A stretch of 45,981 nucleotides of DNA from Bacteroidales bacterium (GTDB lineage: Bacteria > Bacteroidota > Bacteroidia > Bacteroidales > VadinHA17). Positions 7,005 to 38,706 of this stretch are shown here, in pieces. The position numbers and the translations under genes are program-made. The stretch spans positions 1 through 45,981 of the forward strand of contig JALVJE010000011.1 of NCBI GenBank assembly GCA_027028505.1, given 5' to 3'. The first letter of the stretch is position 1, and the number at the start of each line of letters is the position of its first letter. Under the pieces are notes generated by a model that was not told where the DNA came from, did not search any database, and saw only the letters and a program-made list of their open reading frames with translations.

Positions 7005-8342
7005 ATGGGAAAAAGAAAAGTTATCATCATCGGCGCCGCCGGCAGGGATTTTCACAATTTCAACACTTTTTTCAGGAACAACGATCATTACGAAGTGGTG
7101 GCTTTCACGGCTGCCCAGATCCCCGACATTGAAGGACGTGTTTATCCGTCCGGGCTGGCTGGTCCGTTGTACCCGCAGGGGATACCTATTTATGCTGAGG
7201 AAGACCTGCCACAACTGATCCAGGAGCACGGGGTTACCGATTGTGTTTTCTCGTACAGTGATGTGCCTTACACAAAAGTGATGCAGGTGAGTGCCATTGT
7301 GAATGCTGCGGGAGCTTCTTTCATGTTGCTGGGGCCGGATGATACGATGCTGAAAAGCACCAAACCCGTGATCTCTGTGGGGGCGGTACGTACCGGCTGT
7401 GGCAAGAGCCAGACCTCACGGCGCGTCATAGAGATCCTGATAAAAAAAGGGTTGAAGGTGGTAGCGATACGCCATCCCATGCCTTACGGCGATCTGATGG
7501 CCCAGAAAGTGCAACGCTTCGCCAGGCTGGAAGACCTCGCAAAACATCATTGCACCATTGAGGAGATGGAAGAGTATGAACCGCACATTGTCCGGGGCAA
7601 CGTCATCTATGCGGGGGTGGATTACGAAGCCATCCTGCGGGCCGCCGAGCAGGATCCCGACGGTTGCGACGTGATCCTCTGGGATGGCGGCAACAACGAC
7701 TTTCCCTTTTACCGTCCCGACCTGGCCATTACGGTCACCGACCCGCACCGTGCCGGTCATGAGACCAGTTACTATCCCGGCGAAGTGACCCTGCGCATGG
7801 CCGATGTGGTGGTCATCAACAAACTGGACACCGCCGCTCCGGAAAACGTTCAGCTGCTCCGCGAGAACATCGCCCGACTGGCACCGGCTGCCACCGTGAT
7901 CGATGCAGCCTCTCCCATCCGGGTGGACGATCCGCAGGTGATCCGCGGCAAACGGGTACTGGCCATAGAAGACGGTCCCACCCTCACCCATGGCGGGATG
8001 AAGCTGGGCGCCGGCGTGGTGGCCGCCCAAAAATACGGAGCATCGGAGCTGGTGGATCCCCGTCCCTTCCTCCACGGGAAACTGCAGGACACCTTCCGCA
8101 TCTATCCCTCCATCGGCACCCTGCTGCCGGCCATGGGCTACGGCGAGGAACAACTGCATGATCTGGAAAAGACCATCAACAACACCGACTGTGATGCCGT
8201 GATCATCGGGACACCCATCGACCTGAACCGCATCACCAACATCAACAAACCGACCACACGGGTGTACTACGACCTTCAGGAGATAGGCGATCCCACCCTC
8301 GAACAGGTGCTCGACGAATTCATCACCCAAAAACTACATTGA
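7005..8342 (+). CDS. Cyclic 2,3-diphosphoglycerate synthetase-like P-loop GTPase (COG2403 type)
   Basis: 445 residues. The N-terminal ~120 residues look like a Rossmann-type domain (VIIIGAAGRDFHNFN at residues 6-20). A P-loop domain follows, with Walker A GAVRTGCGKS at 126-135, an ILWDGGNND segment near 227, and NKLD at 272-275 as a G4-like guanine-specificity motif. This architecture matches the COG2403 family, which contains archaeal cyclic 2,3-diphosphoglycerate synthetase and many bacterial 'predicted GTPases' of unknown role. Gene neighbours give no pathway clue: it stands alone between an AcpH-like gene and an EamA transporter. The family call is firm; the reaction is unknown. Confidence 0.8.
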   Translation: MGKRKVIIIGAAGRDFHNFNTFFRNNDHYEVVAFTAAQIPDIEGRVYPSGLAGPLYPQGIPIYAEEDLPQLIQEHGVTDCVFSYSDVPYTKVMQVSAIVNAAGASFMLLGPDDTMLKSTKPVISVGAVRTGCGKSQTSRRVIEILIKKGLKVVAIRHPMPYGDLMAQKVQRFARLEDLAKHHCTIEEMEEYEPHIVRGNVIYAGVDYEAILRAAEQDPDGCDVILWDGGNNDFPFYRPDLAITVTDPHRAGHETSYYPGEVTLRMADVVVINKLDTAAPENVQLLRENIARLAPAATVIDAASPIRVDDPQVIRGKRVLAIEDGPTLTHGGMKLGAGVVAAQKYGASELVDPRPFLHGKLQDTFRIYPSIGTLLPAMGYGEEQLHDLEKTINNTDCDAVIIGTPIDLNRITNINKPTTRVYYDLQEIGDPTLEQVLDEFITQKLH

Positions 8343-8371
8343 ACAACGGTTCGCCGTTCATCATTCGTCGT

Positions 8372-9265
8372 TCATCGTTTCTTCAGCATCTGCTTCCCCA
8401 GGGTGATCAGTATCACTCCTGTTACGGTGAGCACGCCGCCCCAGATCTGCCAGGAGGCAGGGACCATGCCGAAATAAAGGAAAGCTCCGGCCAGCACAAA
8501 AAAGCCTTTGGAGCTGGTGATGATGGAGGTGCGCGAGGCCTCCAGGTAACGGATGGCCGAATAGTTGGTCAGGGCCGTGAGGAAAGGCCCCAGGAAAGAG
8601 CCCAGTACAATGTTCAGGAACGCTTTGCCGGGGATGACCATTGACATGCCCGTGATCAGCAATGCCCCCACCGAGAAGGCCCATAAATAGACCAGCCTGT
8701 TGAGGGTGAGCACAAAAGGATTGAGGCGGGCAATGGAATGTTTGGCCATCACAAAAGCTACCGCATACAACACGGACGAAAGGAATACCCACTCTGCTCC
8801 TTCGCGCAGCCAGCCGCTCCCTTCGCCCGGCCGCTGGTAGCTGATCAGAAAGGCACCGCCCAGCGTCAGGACAATACCCAGGATCTCTATGGGAACATAC
8901 CGTTCATGGAGCAACATGACCCCCAGCAGGGTGATCAGCAACGGCGTCAGATTGCCCAGGAAAGAGACCATCGCCGGATTCTCCATTTTCTGTATGGCCA
9001 GGAAGAAAAAGACCGTGCCCCCCAGCTCCAGCAGCCCTATGAGGGCCAGCTGACCCCACTGGTTGCGGGGGATCTCTTTCAGCATGCCCAGCTGCCCCCG
9101 CAAAATCAGATAGATCAGCAGCCATACTATCCCCAGCAGGTACCAGTACACACCGAACTGGATGAGATGGATCTCGTTCAGCGCCGCCTTACTGAAGATA
9201 TACACATTGGCCATGGCCAGCGTGGCCACTACCGCCAGTAAATATCCTTTCGTCCTCTCTTTCAT
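8372..9265 (-). CDS. EamA/DMT-family transporter
   Basis: About 297 residues from the chosen start; an ATG 33 bp upstream (9298) would add 11 residues not typical of the family. I prefer 9265 because MKERTKGYLLAVVATLAMAN is a standard start and AGGAG lies just before it. Roughly ten membrane helices form two EamA repeats; the second is near residues 150-290. Family-like segments are KAALNEIHLIQFGVYW and the GVILITLGKQMLKKR end. Members export or import small metabolites, often amino acids or nucleosides; no substrate can be read here. The stop codon falls inside a short TTCATCG-type repeat at 8349-8378. Confidence 0.88.
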   Translation of the reverse strand: MKERTKGYLLAVVATLAMANVYIFSKAALNEIHLIQFGVYWYLLGIVWLLIYLILRGQLGMLKEIPRNQWGQLALIGLLELGGTVFFFLAIQKMENPAMVSFLGNLTPLLITLLGVMLLHERYVPIEILGIVLTLGGAFLISYQRPGEGSGWLREGAEWVFLSSVLYAVAFVMAKHSIARLNPFVLTLNRLVYLWAFSVGALLITGMSMVIPGKAFLNIVLGSFLGPFLTALTNYSAIRYLEASRTSIITSSKGFFVLAGAFLYFGMVPASWQIWGGVLTVTGVILITLGKQMLKKR

Positions 9266-30044: not shown

Positions 30045-30575
30045 CTACGCTCCTCCTGCCACTTTCCGGCAGATCTTTCGGATCTCCTTTTCAAAGCTGC
30101 CGTGCGGTACCTCCACGATACGCCCCACTTCCAACCCGTCGAGGGTGAAGATGAAGGTAGGCACCCGCCGGATCAGCAGACTGTCCGTATCGATGCCGGG
30201 GGCTTTTTTGTCGCGATCCACATAGATCACGCGGATATGATCGTCCGGGAGGTTCAGCGCATCGGCCACCTTAAAAAATCGGGGCACCTCGCGCCGGCTG
30301 TCGGGACACCATGTGCCCAGGACCACGGTGATCATCATCTCTTCCAGCAGGGGACAGTCCGTCTTTCGCAACAGGGCCGTGTCCGGCCGGTATGCCTCAT
30401 ACTCCCCGGAAAACCACTGACGGAAGGGCTCCTGCTCCATCCCGGCACGGTTACCGTATCCCAAAAGGATCTTCCGGCCGGCCGCTTCTGAATAGACGGT
30501 ACGGTTCTCTTCCTGTGCTTCCAGCAACAGGACACCGGAAAAGAAAAGCAGGAAAAAAAGTGCAATATTCTTCAT
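30045..30575 (-). CDS. Secreted thioredoxin-fold protein lacking the second active-site Cys
   Basis: 176 residues from ATG 30575, where MKNIALFFLLFFSGVLLLEA gives a signal peptide; longer readings would bury it. The thioredoxin-like core runs from about residue 80: VLGTWCPDSRREVPRFF with Cys90, then VIYVDRDK and the cis-Pro region IRRVPTFIFTLDGLEVGRIV. The usual CxxC is C-P-D-S here, so it should not act as a disulfide oxidase by itself; monothiol peroxidase- or glutaredoxin-like chemistry, or a binding role, is possible. It starts a three-gene minus-strand unit with the DUF4190- and DUF2752-like membrane proteins, so a role in the periplasm is inferred. Confidence 0.85.
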   Translation of the reverse strand: MKNIALFFLLFFSGVLLLEAQEENRTVYSEAAGRKILLGYGNRAGMEQEPFRQWFSGEYEAYRPDTALLRKTDCPLLEEMMITVVLGTWCPDSRREVPRFFKVADALNLPDDHIRVIYVDRDKKAPGIDTDSLLIRRVPTFIFTLDGLEVGRIVEVPHGSFEKEIRKICRKVAGGA

Positions 30576-30688
30576 TATTTTTCTTCTGTTGAAACGTAAA
30601 AATAATAATTTCCCTGAAATTCCGGTATTTATCCGGCCCCCTTCTTCATGAATGACGAAAGAATAACGGGAGCGTTGCTTCCGGGAGA

Positions 30689-31773: not shown

Positions 31774-32637
31774 ATGCAGTCCCTGCACACTTTCGACAGC
31801 CTTATCCGTTACCTCACCCGCCAACTGCAGGAGGACCGTGATCCGGCGGAAGCCCGCAGCCTGGCCCGTCTTGTGACAGAAGCGGTGAGCGGCCGCAGCC
31901 ACACACAGCTGCTGCGCGACGGTGCACTGCCCTTCCCGCAGGAACTGTTGCCGAAAGTTAATAATATTCTCCGGCAATTGAAAGCCCGTATACCCCTGCA
32001 ATATGTCCTGGGGGAGACCACTTTCTACCACTGCCGTATTACCCTGAACCCGTCGGTGCTCATCCCCCGCCCTGAGACCGAAGAGTTGGCGGACCGGGTG
32101 ATCCGTTCGCTGGAAAAGAAAAAAGGACCTCTCACGATCCTGGATATCGGTACAGGCAGCGGATGCATCGCCATCGCCCTGGCAAAACACCTGCCCCGGG
32201 CCACCGTCCTGGCCTCGGACATCTCCCCCGAAGCGCTGGAGACCGCCCGGGAGAACGCCCGCCTCAACGGCGTGAAGGTACACTTTTACCGGGAGGACAT
32301 ACTGCACCCGGGAAGCCCCCCGGAAAAGAGACTGCACTGTATCGTCTCCAACCCTCCCTACATCCCCCTCTCCGAAAAAAAGGGCCTGCAACCGGAGGTA
32401 AGAGAGCATGAGCCGCCGGCAGCCCTTTTTGTTCCTGACCGGGACCCTCTGCTTTTTTACCGGGCCATCGCCGGTTATGCCGGCAAATACCTGGCTAAGG
32501 AGGGCCTGCTCATGGTCGAATGCCATGAAAGATATGCCGAAGCAGTAAAAATATTGTTTGAGCAGCAGGGATTCGAAAAAACCGAAGTGTTCCGCGACAT
32601 CAACGGCAAAAAGCGTTTTGTCTCCGTAAAAAGGTGA
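31774..32637 (+). CDS. prmC: Peptide chain release factor N5-glutamine methyltransferase
   Basis: 287 residues. PrmC (HemK) methylates the glutamine of the GGQ motif in RF1 and RF2. The N-terminal helical domain includes RIPLQYVLGETTFYHCRITL leading to LIPRPETEELADRV near 90-103. The SAM-binding ILDIGTGSGCIAIALAK lies near 117-133, and the catalytic NPPY is in IVSNPPYIPLSEK near 191. All are intact. The target RF2 gene is about 4.6 kb downstream in this window. Its 3' end converges with the Crp/Fnr gene with a gap of 3 bp. The mRNA may be leaderless, given the promoter position. Confidence 0.95.
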   Translation: MQSLHTFDSLIRYLTRQLQEDRDPAEARSLARLVTEAVSGRSHTQLLRDGALPFPQELLPKVNNILRQLKARIPLQYVLGETTFYHCRITLNPSVLIPRPETEELADRVIRSLEKKKGPLTILDIGTGSGCIAIALAKHLPRATVLASDISPEALETARENARLNGVKVHFYREDILHPGSPPEKRLHCIVSNPPYIPLSEKKGLQPEVREHEPPAALFVPDRDPLLFYRAIAGYAGKYLAKEGLLMVECHERYAEAVKILFEQQGFEKTEVFRDINGKKRFVSVKR

Positions 32638-32640
32638 ACC

Positions 32641-33324
32641 TTATCCGGTTTTGCTGATCCGCCTGAGGCTGTTGATGTCCAGGATACGAAATTTTTTCCC
32701 TTCCACTTCCAGGATCTTCTCTTCTTTCAGGTCCTTCAGGACCCGGGAGAGACTCTCTCCGGACATCAGGGTTACCTCTGCCATATCACGGCGTGTAAGA
32801 GAGGTGGTAAACTCCCGTGACTTGTATATCCGCACCGACAGACAGAGTAACAGATCTGCCAGGCGGCCGTGCAGTTGTTTGACGCCTACAGTCGCAATGC
32901 GCTCAAAGCTCTTGCGAGTGTCATTGCTCAGCTGCCGTACTATGGCTGTGGCAAAAAGCGGATTGGACGTCAACATCTTCCGGAAAGCCTTGATATCGAC
33001 CGAACATACTGAGGTGTCCTCAAAAGCAATGGAAGAATAGGTGTACTTGTGAGGCGGGGACAATGCCTGGAGTCCCAGGAAATAACCCCGCGACTCAACC
33101 GACAACACCAGGGAACCATGCGTATCTTCCGAGGAAAGCTTGACCAGTCCCTCCTTTATATAATATACACTCGAGGCAAAGATCCCCTGCTTGCACAGGG
33201 ACTCTCCCCGCCGGTATTTCACATCCACACGGTTCCTGTTCATAAACGACAACTCCTCCGGGGATAGGTAACGGAAAGGTGTGGAAATACAATCACAATC
33301 ATGACACCTGGCAAGAAGATCCAT
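32641..33324 (-). CDS. Crp/Fnr family transcriptional regulator with N-terminal cysteines
   Basis: 227 residues. A cyclic-nucleotide-binding-like beta-roll (about 20-130; YRRGESLCKQGIFASSVYYI, KEGLVKLSSED) is followed by the dimer helix and a C-terminal winged helix with LTRRDMAEVTLMSGESLSRV as the HTH. The N-terminus has Cys7, Cys10 and Cys12 in RCHDCDC, with Cys44 in the roll. This is an FNR-like arrangement that might bind an Fe-S cluster or sense redox or sulfur species, although spacing differs from E. coli FNR (20, 23, 29, 122). Divergent from the rhodanese-porin operon across 212 bp, it is the obvious candidate regulator of it. Confidence 0.9.
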   Translation of the reverse strand: MDLLARCHDCDCISTPFRYLSPEELSFMNRNRVDVKYRRGESLCKQGIFASSVYYIKEGLVKLSSEDTHGSLVLSVESRGYFLGLQALSPPHKYTYSSIAFEDTSVCSVDIKAFRKMLTSNPLFATAIVRQLSNDTRKSFERIATVGVKQLHGRLADLLLCLSVRIYKSREFTTSLTRRDMAEVTLMSGESLSRVLKDLKEEKILEVEGKKFRILDINSLRRISKTG

Positions 33325-33346
33325 TTTTTTAATAAGGTTGGCAGGT

Positions 33347-33379
33347 CAAAAATAATAAAATACTTGAGCTGGGATCAAA
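33347..33379 (-). promoter_or_regulatory. Promoter of the Crp/Fnr gene
   Basis: On the minus strand TTTG (33379-33376), 21 bp, TATTTTTG (33354-33347). The start codon follows 22 bp later. The imperfect palindrome TTGA-N7-TCAA at 33364-33378 overlaps the -33 end, a place where an autoregulatory operator could sit. Confidence 0.6.
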
Positions 33380-33476
33380 TTTTTATTGCCCTGTTATAAA
33401 AAAAACTTGACGAAATTATTGTGAATTTAATATCATAAAACATTCCGAAACTCTCATTTCTTTATTGCCGAGGCCG

Positions 33477-33484
33477 TATATTTG
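33477..33484 (+). promoter_or_regulatory. -7 element for the rhodanese-porin operon
   Basis: TATATTTG fits TAnnTTTG, 52 bp before the first ATG. No TTTG lies at the expected distance upstream, which would suit a promoter that needs an activator such as the divergent Crp/Fnr protein. An inverted repeat GAATTGT (33484-33490) / ACAATTC (33509-33515) lies in the leader. Confidence 0.55.
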
Positions 33485-33536
33485 AATTGTTTATTGATTC
33501 ACAAATTCACAATTCGTTATCTAATCTTTAAAAATT

Positions 33537-34511
33537 ATGATTATGAAAAATTTCAGAAGATTCAGTATTCTTTTTCTCGCGGTTTTGTTTCTGGGCATCT
33601 CCGCATGTAAGAAAAGCACCGATGACGGTCCGGAACGTAAAACGGACCCGGAATTTCAGACGCTGGTGAGTTATTTGTCGGCCCATCAGATGGATCTCTC
33701 ACATATTCTTTCGGACTGGATCATTCCTGCCTCTGCTGTTAACGGTGACCTGGGGTCCTTTTATGTGATCGATATCCGGGCTGGAGACGATTACAATGCC
33801 GGCCACATTGAAGGGGCCGTGAACAGTTCCCTGGCCGGTATCCTGGACGCTGCCAAGAATGCCGGAGGAAAGACCATTGTGGTGGCATGTTATACGGGGC
33901 AGACGGCCGCCCATGCTGTGGTGGCTCTGCGGCTCAGCGGCTACAGCAATGCCAAGGTCCTGAAGTGGGGCATGGCCGGGTGGACCAGTTCCCTCTCAAC
34001 GCCATGGGAAAGCAATGTGGACACCAAAAACTCCCCCAACTGGATAGCAGCACCGGGCGGTATCGTGGACAACAAAGAGTTTGATGATCCCGATCTGCAG
34101 GTGAGTGCCACCGACGGAAAAGGTATACTGGCCGAAAGGGTGAATTATCTCCTGACCCGGGGATTTAAAGGGATCAGCAGTGCGGATGTGCTGGCCTCCC
34201 CCGGAGATTACTTCATCAATAATTTCTGGGATGCCGAAAATGTAAAGGATTACGGCAATATAGCCAATGCTCACCGCATCAAACCCCTCACCCTCGCCAA
34301 CGAAGACTATAAGTACATCGATCCTTCCCAAACAGTGGTCACCTACTGCTGGACCGGTCAGACCTCCTCAATGGTGACTGCCTATCTCGCTGTCCTGGGG
34401 TACAACACCAAAAGTCTGAAATTCGGTGTGAACAGCATCATATACGACGACCTGAAAGAACACAAGTGGAGCACACCCACGACCGACCTGCCCCTTGTGA
34501 CAGAAAATTAA
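33537..34511 (+). CDS. Lipoprotein with two active rhodanese domains
   Basis: 324 residues. The signal peptide MIMKNFRRFSILFLAVLFLG ends in lipobox ISAC, with Cys24 as the lipidation site. Two rhodanese-like domains follow, each with its catalytic cysteine: Cys118 in VVACYTGQTAAHA and Cys271 in VTYCWTGQTSSM. The first domain has the preceding VIDIRAGDDYNAGHIEGAVN motif; the second is less regular. Rhodaneses carry sulfane sulfur on that cysteine, so this protein could bind or relay sulfur at the membrane surface. Whether it faces the periplasm or the outside is unknown. It is first in an operon with a porin and a second exported rhodanese, divergent from the Crp/Fnr gene. Confidence 0.9.
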   Translation: MIMKNFRRFSILFLAVLFLGISACKKSTDDGPERKTDPEFQTLVSYLSAHQMDLSHILSDWIIPASAVNGDLGSFYVIDIRAGDDYNAGHIEGAVNSSLAGILDAAKNAGGKTIVVACYTGQTAAHAVVALRLSGYSNAKVLKWGMAGWTSSLSTPWESNVDTKNSPNWIAAPGGIVDNKEFDDPDLQVSATDGKGILAERVNYLLTRGFKGISSADVLASPGDYFINNFWDAENVKDYGNIANAHRIKPLTLANEDYKYIDPSQTVVTYCWTGQTSSMVTAYLAVLGYNTKSLKFGVNSIIYDDLKEHKWSTPTTDLPLVTEN

Positions 34512-34547
34512 ACGAACCCTTATTGAAATCACCAAATAATCCTTACC

Positions 34548-35567
34548 ATGAAAAGATCAATCATATGCTCCTTGCTGGTGATGTTATGCCCCCTGCTGGC
34601 CCGTTCCCAGGGATGTATGGAGCCCAAATCGGAAGAAGGCGTATCCGTGATAGGATACCTGCAGCCTCAATATGAGCTGCTCCAGACACCCGACGGGTGG
34701 AACAACGGGTTCACCTTCAACCGGGCCCGTCTGGGAGTCACGGGCAGCATACCTTACGATTTCTCTTATTACGCCATGATCGACTTCTCCCGTTTCAAAC
34801 CACAGGCCACTTATATCCTGGATGCTTTCATCACCTACGGGCGGTTCTCTTTTGCCAAAGCCACACTGGGACAGTTCAAACCCCCTTATTCGCAGGAGCT
34901 GAACACCCCCTGTCACAAATTGCACACCATTGAGCGTTCGAAAGTGGTGTATGAGCTGGCCTTGCCCGACCGTGACCTGGGGATCATGGTGTGGGGCAGT
35001 TTCCTGGATTCCAGGATCAGTTACAACTTCGCTGTGATGAACGGTTACCGTCGCAACTTTTTCGACGAAAACAAGCAGAAAGATATCGTTGGAAGGTTGC
35101 TCTTCCAGCCGTCTGAGATGTTCCGCTTCGGCGGAAGCTTCCGCAGAGGTGTCACCGGCGCCGGGTCGGATAACCTCAAAACGCGCTACGCTGCAGAAAT
35201 GCAGTTCAAATGGAGAGACCTCATGCTCCAGGCCGAATATCTTCACGGTACCGACACGGGATCCTACACCACCGGCGGCGGTTGTGACGGCTCACCCATT
35301 GAGATACACGACGGACCCGTGACCAGGGATGGTATGTATGCCATGCTGATGTATATGACCCCCTGGCGGATCCAGCCGGTCATCAAGTATGAGTTCTACC
35401 GGGGTGATATCAGTATTGCCAACAATATCGACCACTGGATCACCTACGGGATCAATTACTTTTTTAACGACTGGACCCGTCTCCAGGTCAACTACATCTA
35501 TAAATCCGAGATGCTGGACGAGATCCCCAATGACGCGTTCCTGGTACAGCTACAGGTCGAGTTTTAA
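34548..35567 (+). CDS. Outer-membrane porin (OprO/OprP-like)
   Basis: 339 residues. A signal peptide (about 1-20, ending LLARSQ) is followed by alternating hydrophobic beta-strand segments and a C-terminal strand ending in Phe (FLVQLQVEF), the outer-membrane barrel signature. The opening GYLQPQYELLQ, then NGFTFNRARLGVTGSIPYDF, and ATLGQFKPPYSQE resemble the phosphate-selective porin O/P family, widely used for small anions. Two cysteines near the N-terminus and a few others are unusual for porins. Between two rhodanese genes (36 and 24 bp gaps), it may admit a sulfur oxyanion such as thiosulfate, but that is inference from context. Confidence 0.88.
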   Translation: MKRSIICSLLVMLCPLLARSQGCMEPKSEEGVSVIGYLQPQYELLQTPDGWNNGFTFNRARLGVTGSIPYDFSYYAMIDFSRFKPQATYILDAFITYGRFSFAKATLGQFKPPYSQELNTPCHKLHTIERSKVVYELALPDRDLGIMVWGSFLDSRISYNFAVMNGYRRNFFDENKQKDIVGRLLFQPSEMFRFGGSFRRGVTGAGSDNLKTRYAAEMQFKWRDLMLQAEYLHGTDTGSYTTGGGCDGSPIEIHDGPVTRDGMYAMLMYMTPWRIQPVIKYEFYRGDISIANNIDHWITYGINYFFNDWTRLQVNYIYKSEMLDEIPNDAFLVQLQVEF

Positions 35568-35591
35568 GTCTAACCCTATAAACTTACTACC

Positions 35592-36455
35592 ATGAAGATC
35601 AAGAAATATTCATTCCTTTTGTTGGGGCTCTTTCTTGCCGCCCTTACTGCCTCTGCCTCCGATCTTATTACGGTATCGGAGCTGGCCAAAAAGCTTCGTG
35701 ACAAAAACACAGTGATCGTTTCCTGCCGAAAACCCGCCGACTATGAGAAGGTTCATATCCCGGGTGCGGTCAACATCCATCACATGGAACTTTACCAGGA
35801 TCCGGCCACCAACGGTTATATCCTACCCGCCGATCAGCTGGCACAGATCTTTGGCGAATATGGTATCACAGAGACCAAGACCATTGTTCTTTATGATGAA
35901 GGATCCGGAAAATATTCCGGACGCCTTTACTGGATCCTGAAGTATCTTGGAGCGCCCAACGTAAAGATCCTGGATGGTCAGCTACCGGCCTGGAAAGCAG
36001 CACGTAAGCCCCTAACGGGAGCGTCCCCGTCCATCCGGCCGGCCGTTTTCACCCCTCATTTGCAACCCCAACTCCTGGCAACCACGCCCCAGGTAAAAAA
36101 AGCCATAGGGGATCCCGGCACAGTCATTATCGATGCCCGTTCTCCTGAAGAGTACAGCGGAACAGATGGAGGAAACCTGCGGCCGGGCCATATCCCCAAA
36201 GCCATCAATATCGACTACAGGGAAGTGGAACACCCCGGAGGAAAGCTGAAATCTCCGGAAGAACTGAAGAAACTTTTTACCTCCAAAGGGGTCACCCCCG
36301 ACAAGAAGGTGATCGTTTATTGCAAGACCAGTGTTCGTGCAGGGATCATCTTCTTTGCCTTGAGAAGCATCCTGGACTATCCAAACGTCCGGGTATATGA
36401 TGAAGCATATATAGGATGGCTACAGACGGCCGGCAACCCCGTAGCCACCCGGTAA
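35592..36455 (+). CDS. Exported tandem-domain sulfurtransferase (thiosulfate sulfurtransferase-like)
   Basis: 287 residues. A signal peptide (about 1-22, ending TASAS) precedes two rhodanese domains. The first (about 25-140) has VLYDEGSGKYSGRLYWILKY in place of an active-site loop and is the non-catalytic structural domain usual in TST/SseA proteins. The second has VIVYCKTSVRAG with Cys244 as catalytic residue, after VIIDARSPEEYSG and RPGHIPKAINIDY. It should transfer sulfur between thiosulfate or a persulfide and an acceptor thiol or cyanide in the periplasm. It is the last gene of the operon; a terminator follows. Confidence 0.92.
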   Translation: MKIKKYSFLLLGLFLAALTASASDLITVSELAKKLRDKNTVIVSCRKPADYEKVHIPGAVNIHHMELYQDPATNGYILPADQLAQIFGEYGITETKTIVLYDEGSGKYSGRLYWILKYLGAPNVKILDGQLPAWKAARKPLTGASPSIRPAVFTPHLQPQLLATTPQVKKAIGDPGTVIIDARSPEEYSGTDGGNLRPGHIPKAINIDYREVEHPGGKLKSPEELKKLFTSKGVTPDKKVIVYCKTSVRAGIIFFALRSILDYPNVRVYDEAYIGWLQTAGNPVATR

Positions 36456-36475
36456 GGATCCATAACAGCATTGAT

Positions 36476-36503
36476 AAAGGCCGCCTCCGGGTGGCCTTTT
36501 TTT
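36476..36503 (+). terminator. Terminator of the rhodanese-porin operon
   Basis: GGCCGCC (36479-36485), loop TCCG, GGGTGGCC-type arm to 36496 with one G-U pair, then seven T (36497-36503). It is 21 bp after the sulfurtransferase stop and 34 bp before recX. Confidence 0.88.
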
Positions 36504-36536
36504 ATTAAATTTACTCCTTACCAAAACCTTCCTGCC

Positions 36537-37022
36537 ATGCCCGGGATCAACGCAGAAAAAGCACTCGACCGCGCCATGCGCCTCTGCAGCCGCCAGGAGA
36601 AATGCAGCAGCTATATCCTCGACAAACTGAAAGCATGGGGTACGGACGAAACCACCGCCCAAAAGATGCTGAAGACCCTGACAGAAAAAAAGTTCGTCGA
36701 CGACCTGCGCTACGCCAAAGCTTATACCCGCCAGCAACATACCTTCCGCAAATGGGGCCGCATCAAGATCCGGACCGTGCTGAAGCAGAAAAACATCCCT
36801 GCAGATTTCATTGACGAAGCCCTGGCGGAGCTCGACGAACAGGAATACCGGGAGACCCTGAAAGCGGAGCTGTTGAAAAAACGCCGGAGCATAAAAGCCA
36901 AAAACCGGTACGACCTGCTGGCGCGGTTGCAGAAATTCGCCTACGGCCGCGGCTACGAACCTGAGCTGGCAAGGAAGGTGGCGGAAGAAATTATCGATGA
37001 AGATCCGCCTTCGTTCCGCTAG
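36537..37022 (+). CDS. recX: RecX-family regulatory protein
   Basis: 161 residues from ATG 36537; an ATG at 36471 lies inside the terminator hairpin and would add 22 residues of poor fit. RecX modulates RecA filaments. The three-helix repeats are visible: ALDRAMRLCSRQEKCSSYIL, DKLKAWG, then EKKFVDDLRYAKAYTRQQHTF with RKWGRIKIRTVLKQKNI, the best-conserved part, and a third repeat near the C-terminus (ARLQKFAYGRGYEPELARKV). No recA is nearby. Moderately diverged, as RecX usually is. Confidence 0.88.
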   Translation: MPGINAEKALDRAMRLCSRQEKCSSYILDKLKAWGTDETTAQKMLKTLTEKKFVDDLRYAKAYTRQQHTFRKWGRIKIRTVLKQKNIPADFIDEALAELDEQEYRETLKAELLKKRRSIKAKNRYDLLARLQKFAYGRGYEPELARKVAEEIIDEDPPSFR

Positions 37023-38364: not shown

Positions 38365-38706
38365 ATGATCACGATCTATCACAACCCCCGATGCCGAAAG
38401 AGCCGCGCCGGCCTGGCATACCTCGAAAGCAAAGGGGTGGATTTTACGATCCGCAACTATTTCAAGGAGCCTCTCTCAGCAGAGGAGCTGAAGGACGTAC
38501 TAAAAAAGCTGGGTCTTCCCGCCCGGGAGATGATCCGCACACAGGAGGCGGAGTACAAGAGCCTCTACAAAGGGAAAGAGCTCAGCGAAGAGGAGTGGGT
38601 GCAGGCCATCATCGACCATCCCAAACTGCTCAAACGTCCGGTGGTGGTGAAAGACGACAAAGCCGTCTGGGCCGATCCGCCGGAGAATATGGATATTCTT
38701 TTCTGA
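38365..38706 (+). CDS. ArsC/Spx/YffB-family protein
   Basis: 113 residues from ATG 38365. The N-terminal ITIYHNPRCRKSRAGLAYLE places the redox Cys10 in the ArsC thioredoxin-like fold; the C-terminal RPVVVKDDKAVWADPPENM holds the conserved Arg-Pro. Many proteins of this type (YffB, ArsC-like) are not proven arsenate reductases, and no arsenic-resistance genes lie near. It sits between prfB (26 bp) and fumC (26 bp) in one orientation, so it probably shares their transcript. Arsenate reductase or a glutathione/thiol-linked reductase activity are both possible. Confidence 0.88.
   Translation: MITIYHNPRCRKSRAGLAYLESKGVDFTIRNYFKEPLSAEELKDVLKKLGLPAREMIRTQEAEYKSLYKGKELSEEEWVQAIIDHPKLLKRPVVVKDDKAVWADPPENMDILF

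Follow-up and report, generated by a model that had tools for sequence, protein, structure and literature searches.

The extHIJKLMNOPQS cluster of Geobacter sulfurreducens, as described in PMC5877670 and PMC6148476, encodes a rhodanese lipoprotein, ExtH, and a porin, ExtI. Loss of extI lowers the reduction of both selenite and tellurite (PMC5877670). Otero et al. describe a divergent LysR regulator in most ext clusters, and a different rhodanese in 10 of 18 (PMC6148476). Here we analyze a similar arrangement in a Bacteroidales bacterium of the VadinHA17 lineage. The DNA examined (the window) is a stretch of 45,981 nucleotides, positions 1 to 45,981 of contig JALVJE010000011.1 (assembly GCA_027028505.1). 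It carries a gene for a Crp/Fnr regulator (R), divergent from genes for a double-rhodanese lipoprotein (A), a porin (B), and an exported rhodanese (C).

The R-A-B-C block is a true unit, and the module it encodes is rare and patchily distributed. We judge it probable, at roughly 60%, that the block is a self-contained, movable cassette, subject to gain and loss, for an FNR-type-regulated outer-membrane module that, in anaerobic Bacteroidota, handles sulfane sulfur or small sulfur oxyanions such as thiosulfate or polysulfide, on the ExtH-ExtI theme. This reading builds on gene order, export signals, cysteines, an operator-like repeat, and neighboring genes. The features are as follows.

32641-33324, minus strand: R, a Crp/Fnr-family regulator with CxxCxC at residues 7-12 and Cys107 (Pfam, cysteine alignment)
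33364-33378, strand not assigned: predicted R operator TTGAGCTGGGATCAA, of the form TTGAK-N5-ATCAA (comparison of R-A intergenic regions)
33477-33484, plus strand: TATATTTG, a possible Bacteroidota-type -7 element of the A-B-C promoter (read in the sequence)
33543-34511, plus strand: A, a lipoprotein with two rhodanese domains, loops CYTGQT and CWTGQT (Pfam, alignment, AlphaFold)
34548-35567, plus strand: B, a 16-strand outer-membrane porin of the Porin_O_P/ExtI type with Cys23 and Cys122 (Pfam, NCBIfam, alignment, AlphaFold, Foldseek)
35592-36455, plus strand: C, an exported tandem rhodanese of the TST/MST type with second-domain Cys244 (Pfam, PDB rhodaneses, alignment)
36476-36499, plus strand: terminator-like hairpin followed by a T run (hairpin scan)
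32622-36563, strand not assigned: stretch without counterpart in the related genome G001, comprising the cassette and small margins of prmC and recX (genome comparison)

Conservation of the block was judged from 54 loci, the window plus 53 others (L040-L092) gathered through A. In 22 of these (the window and 21 others) the porin scored over 400 bits, and these were counted; the count excludes L064, where the porin scores 89 bits and the order is C-A-B. A lies directly 5' of B in all 22, although a contig end cuts A in L076. C follows B in 18 (it is cut in L055) and does not in L040, L044, and L049; L043 is unjudgeable. L040 and L049 nevertheless have a C-like rhodanese elsewhere. An R-like regulator is divergent from and adjoins A in nine loci, and lies elsewhere in the stretch in five more; several of the remaining eight are cut by contig ends. 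The first-pass annotation, made from the window sequence alone, proposed comparing neighborhoods for joint conservation of these four families, and its proposal passes this check because the genes are conserved together.

An independent search started from the porin. Among 99 relatives, 12 have a match above 470 bits, all with A beside B, and the next match falls to 180 bits. Among 395 Bacteroidota genomes drawn evenly across the phylum, five have a B match at 1e-40: the source genome, G232, and G394 score at least 387 bits, and the other two score 163-187 bits, with A not found in their fetched loci. The cassette is rare, since strong B proteins occur in only those three. In G232 and G394 the A-B pair has a further rhodanese upstream, and C is absent after B.

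The block lies between prmC (31774-32637), with ribD, on the 5' side and recX (36537-37022), then prfB, on the 3' side; NCBIfam scores exceed cut-off for prmC, ribD, and prfB, and fall below it for the RecX models matched by recX. The DNA of the close relative G001 matches the window at 92.5% identity as far as position 32621, close to the end of prmC; the match resumes, at 89.0% identity, at 36564, a short way into recX. R, A, B, and C are missing there, and the matched prmC and recX ends are 64 bp apart. Three more genomes (G002, G004, G006) have prmC and recX as neighbors without the four genes; in G004 they stand about 1 kb apart, and the unread DNA between them matches none of R, A, B, and C. 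In G017 and G024 prmC and recX adjoin without the block, and each genome has its own A-B-C at another place. (Neither prmC nor recX was matched in G003.) In G005 the cassette is found at the site that it occupies in the window, and identity ranges over 71-79% for R, A, B, and C. The simplest history is an ancestral insertion with later loss in G001; alternatively, there may have been two separate insertions. Chance neighbors, considered as an explanation of the block, were rejected on the conserved order and this clean site.

Alternative redox gene sets lie beside the cassette in relatives. One of three such sets is next to it in 13 of the 21 loci other than the window, or in 14 if L042, with its b-type cytochrome only, is counted (partners in loci that were not scored directly were assigned by BLAST clustering). 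In the first set, an ExtM-like multihaem protein stands beside five loci (L047, L054, L057, L061, and L076). Its ExtM scores (272.7 bits in L054, 232.2 in L061, 192.6 in L047) compare with a cut-off of 800, and it exceeds 900 residues in all but L047. These four longer proteins are accompanied by a Rieske protein and a PhsA-like molybdoenzyme (below the PhsA cut-off in L054 and L061, where it was scored); L047 has NrfD and 4Fe-4S proteins nearby instead. The L054 protein is fused to a cytochrome b part whose ExtP score is 54.7 of 290 bits. Upstream in that locus are a DsrE-like gene and a sulfide:quinone oxidoreductase (SQR)-like gene whose family exceeds the type III SQR cut-off in L056. (Such cytochrome b-ExtM-like fusions beside Rieske proteins, at L113:8658-11396 and L054:10468-13221, amount to a one-protein version of Geobacter ExtP plus ExtM.) The second set, in L040, L041, and L048, comprises a cytochrome of the octahaem tetrathionate-reductase family (569-577 bits; cut-off 375) and a b-type cytochrome. 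The third, beside five loci, pairs YedE/YeeE with TusA (L045, L049, and L058-L060); DsrE is present in four of them (L049 and L058-L060), and the last three also have Hdr/FlpD-like genes.

The ExtM-like partner raises the question of whether A and B, together with such a cytochrome, carry electrons outward, as proposed for extHIJKL. Tested as a candidate conduit, that gene set was enough by itself for part of the reduction of Fe(III) and Mn(IV) oxides (PMC6148476), and the five ExtM-type loci would fit. But no haem-protein family in Pfam matches any of the four cassette genes, and 16 of the 21 loci lack an adjoining ExtM-like partner, which leaves an electron conduit highly improbable.

Further evidence comes from whole genomes. 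In G232, a single-contig genome, a Crp regulator, a rhodanese, A, and B form one run, contiguous with two rhodaneses, two Sulf_transp proteins or halves (YeeE), and a complex of the Psr/Phs type (NrfD, a 4Fe-4S protein, and a molybdoenzyme). A cluster of this kind is present in the source genome on contig C267 (its PhsA-like protein scores 475.8 of 694 bits), and contig C15 has a Rieske protein with a cytochrome b-ExtM fusion (ExtM, 220.4 of 800 bits); no octahaem protein over cut-off was found in that genome. By plain Fisher tests, which ignore phylogeny, ExtM-like proteins (E < 1e-40) occur in 8 of the 12 cassette genomes versus 7 of 87 others (p = 1.4e-5), and PhsA-like proteins (1e-60) in 10 of 12 versus 34 of 87 (p = 0.004; the matches in G031 and G075 are fragments). 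ExtM-like proteins are present in 15 of the 99 relatives at 1e-40, and in 21 at 0.001. In a tree of B proteins, many of whose deep forks are open, the window family forms an ExtM-type group of six; loci of the ExtM, octahaem, and YedE types are found in other parts of the tree as well.

The sulfur-handling context suggested by the first-pass annotation gains weight from the dissimilatory sulfur genes beside the cassette in relatives. These genes bear as well on a detoxification or repair unit, in which rhodaneses at the envelope would remove cyanide, polysulfide, or surplus sulfide, and the role of the porin would be limited to passing the products. Rhodaneses do accept cyanide in vitro, and an accessory, patchy cassette with its own regulator would suit such a role. 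The repeated link to respiratory-type sulfur genes speaks against it, as does the FNR-like regulator in the closest group, and we consider detoxification decidedly unlikely.

The regulator adds evidence for the sulfur module. C7, C10, C12, and C107 are all kept in the window R and the four closest divergent regulators; across 31 R-like open reading frames of more than 200 residues, C7 is kept in 31 and C10 in 17. Three of the four in R (C7, C10, and C107) share alignment columns with cysteines of PDB chains of the FNR type (for example, 9qly) that we take to be cluster ligands, and the recognition helix reads GESLSR, similar to VETISR in the FNR-type alignment. The repeat TTGAK-N5-ATCAA, with TTGAT-like half-sites as in FNR, stands at about the same place in all five of the closest R-A intergenic regions, the window included. 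Its loose form, TTGA-N7-TCAA, has six occurrences in 147 kb of background. The narrower pattern TTGAKNTGRNATCAA, picked after looking at the sequences, occurs once in the window (0.02 expected) and fits four of the five closest regions. L040, L049, and L063 carry TGAT-N4-ATCA instead, which is weak evidence because that pattern has 15 occurrences in the 147 kb background; neither operator pattern was found in the R-A intergenic region of L047. R also differs from FNR: its third cysteine is shifted (CxxCxC); the operator half-sites are 5 nt apart, compared with 4 in the FNR box; more distant R proteins lack CxxCxC; and the NCBIfam Fnr model gives 56.3 of 228 bits, below cut-off. The relationship to FNR proposed in the first-pass annotation is supported by the four-cysteine pattern of the closest group together with the conserved FNR-like operator, and R is plausibly FNR-like in its sensing and DNA reading.

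Both A (22 of 22 aligned) and C (17 of 17) have rhodanese domains with an active-loop cysteine. The lipobox Cys22 and loop residues Cys116 and Cys269 are invariant in A; in C, Cys244 of the second-domain loop is invariant, and the first domains mostly lack a loop cysteine. Comparison with PDB rhodaneses assigns C to the TST/MST type. The AlphaFold model of A has a predicted local distance difference test score (pLDDT) of 83.5, and Foldseek returned only poor global template modeling scores for it (0.24-0.31 by query length); the domains may be arranged differently than in classical TST, or the model itself may be inaccurate. Two or more acidic residues occur at positions +2 to +8 in 20 of 22 A proteins. 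(L040:6013-7869 encodes a version of A in which the double-rhodanese unit is duplicated.)

B matches Porin_O_P at 50.8 bits (Pfam cut-off 20.9), and its AlphaFold model, built from 12 sequences (pLDDT 78.2), has 16 long strands. Among 22 aligned B proteins, Cys23 and Cys122 are invariant and Cys246 is nearly so. In the model, Cys122 lies in the long stretch that links strands 5 and 6, where such porins have a loop that folds into the pore. ExtI is the sole NCBIfam match of every one of the 22 B proteins at E 0.001. Within the source genome the ExtI model matches B only, while Porin_O_P matches at three places, one of them stronger than B; in 14 control genomes the ExtI model has no match. A second rhodanese gene lies directly 5' of a Porin_O_P porin in the source genome (contig C25; L168:12-389, then 392-1399), and is followed by a resistance-nodulation-division pump fused to an outer-membrane efflux domain (L168:1520-5851).

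From these features we infer a substrate, a direction, a surface position for A, and a sensing role for R. A would capture sulfur at or outside the outer membrane; B would pass sulfide, thiosulfate, or short polysulfide; and periplasmic C might hand the sulfur to a reductase of the PsrA/PhsA type or to YeeE channels; in relatives the recipients could be other redox sets. Electrons could come from the Psr/Phs-type complex or from a bc/multihaem unit. R presumably uses an iron-sulfur cluster to switch the cassette in response to oxygen or redox state, the switch taking place under low oxygen. A more specific version, which we offer only tentatively, makes A-B-C a dedicated outer-membrane relay for sulfane sulfur, from a surface rhodanese that loads the sulfur, to a porin with an invariant cysteine in its pore-loop segment, to a periplasmic rhodanese, to whichever respiratory module is present. 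If so, the same core would plug into at least three unrelated redox systems and move between genomes as one cassette. According to PMC10045233, membrane proteins for S0 transport in sulfur oxidizers have not been confirmed experimentally. The rhodanese-porin core, which is conserved, movable, and repeatedly found next to genes of the tetrathionate family, the Psr/Phs type, and YedE/TusA, offers concrete candidates for the crossing of the outer membrane by S0 or polysulfide.

Several observations weigh against the sulfur module. The ExtI score of B, 53.2 bits, is below the cut-off of 150, and ExtH is not among the families matched by the 22 A proteins. The N-terminus of the window A (CKKSTDD) fits the published surface-export signal C-X-K-(D/E)2-X poorly; surface export of A was therefore rejected as a settled point, the acidic residues of most A proteins notwithstanding. 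A is not confined to the cassette, because A-like rhodaneses occur in 46 of the 99 relatives; the rest of the 54 loci likewise carry them without the porin. Seven of the 21 loci, some on short contigs, have none of the redox partners nearby, and the window cassette sits between housekeeping genes with no respiratory gene adjoining. The PhsA, ExtM, and ExtP matches in the source genome are all below cut-off; PhsA-like genes are common without the cassette (34 of 87 relatives); and both co-occurrence tests leave phylogeny aside. Finally, the known ExtI phenotype concerns selenite and tellurite reduction, and may be indirect (PMC5877670).

That phenotype also invites a different substrate: the cassette would let in and help reduce selenite or tellurite, and the rhodaneses would form or bind Se0 or Te0. 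The ExtI match of B agrees with this, as do the ExtM/ExtP-like cytochromes in the source genome and beside the cassette in relatives. However, the other partners bear sulfur names (the octahaem tetrathionate family, YedE/TusA/DsrE, type III SQR, and the NrfD/polysulfide-reductase family), recX rather than extJKL follows C, and selenium and tellurium oxyanions are usually trace compounds. A metalloid module thus seems unlikely.

The remaining observations concern gene calls and parts. R, A, B, and C have 227, 322, 339, and 287 residues, respectively. A starts at 33537 or 33543; the latter is likelier because relatives mostly begin MK. The divergent R-A promoter region is 212 nt (218 nt with the later start), and the spacers are 36 nt between A and B and 24 nt between B and C. 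The first-pass layout, with R divergent from A, B, and C, is confirmed by gene calls and Pfam (R, cNMP_binding and HTH_Crp_2; A and C, two Rhodanese stretches each; B, Porin_O_P); likewise, Cys7, Cys10, and Cys12 of the regulator are where it had them, and the lipoprotein has a lipobox cysteine and a single cysteine in each rhodanese loop. The terminator that it placed at the end of the operon has a candidate in the hairpin at 36476-36499, which has the most pairs of the four terminator-like hairpins found; as a class, such hairpins are not significant, because shuffles average 4.6. The possible promoter element TATATTTG was named by reference to TAnnTTTG, which we take to be the Bacteroidota -7 consensus, and similar elements were read by eye in orthologous intergenic regions. 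Elsewhere in the window, 38365-38706 (plus strand), just 3' of prfB, encodes an ArsC-family protein, and 30045-30602 (minus strand) an exported-looking protein with a WCPDSR motif and a weak thioredoxin match below the Pfam cut-off.

Another group of rhodanese-like proteins ends in a C-terminal GGC tail. Two are encoded at L114:7405-8019 and 8107-8721 (plus strand; contig C267 of the source genome), and others in L119, L121, L122, L126, L127, L170, L083, L050, and further loci. In L114 and L170 they adjoin YeeE and a Psr/Phs-type complex. A survey of 1419 six-frame open reading frames of at least 100 residues (identical ones removed) from 74 loci, a set gathered around rhodaneses and including 144 rhodanese-like frames, found the GGC end in 30 frames from 18 loci, all 30 rhodanese-like. 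Among the 22 that are shorter than 260 residues, the loop cysteine is replaced in 18 and kept in four (L040, L041, L048, and L062). These proteins look like sulfur carriers of the SoxY type, whose swinging arm we take as the analogy. A literature search on GGC-tailed rhodaneses found nothing.

Three described systems remain for comparison. B resembles OprP and OprO, with Porin_O_P over cut-off and OprP the top match by both sequence and Foldseek. It differs in its 17% identity to OprP, in that OmpF-like porins score nearly as well by fold, and in its invariant cysteines and link to rhodaneses. The YedE-TusA-DsrE (YTD) cluster of sulfur disproportionators shares YedE/YeeE and TusA with 5 of the 21 A-B loci, and DsrE with four, but is not beside the window cassette. 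PMC12998232 reports the complete YTD cluster in none of its studied phyla other than Desulfobacterota and Nitrospirota; L058, L059, and L060, which are from Bacteroidota, have a YedE-TusA-DsrE-rhodanese set and Hdr/FlpD-like genes around A-B-C.

The closest precedent is the Geobacter ext cluster. The first-pass annotation knew of no named system with this composition; that needs correction, because ext also pairs a rhodanese with a porin, extHI combining a rhodanese lipoprotein and a porin with a divergent regulator. (A literature search at the title and abstract level found no publication on the R-A-B-C set in Bacteroidota.) Shared features are a rhodanese lipoprotein gene adjoining that for an ExtI-type porin, in the window and 21 other loci, and the divergent regulator. 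ExtM/ExtP/Rieske-like partners stand beside some relatives' loci and on another contig here. The differences are substantial: the B and ExtM-like proteins are below their cut-offs; an extra TST-type protein, C, is present (ExtH model, 72.7 of 200 bits, below cut-off); Crp/Fnr replaces LysR; extJKL does not follow, since the next gene after C is recX-like; and the cytochrome b and ExtM-like parts are fused in one protein. Membership in ext proper was rejected on the ExtI cut-off, the ExtH model, LysR, and extJKL. The best reading is that B is ExtI-like and the A-B-C set a Bacteroidota variant of the ExtHI theme, which suggests a broader sulfur/chalcogen family to which the Geobacter selenite/tellurite operon would belong.

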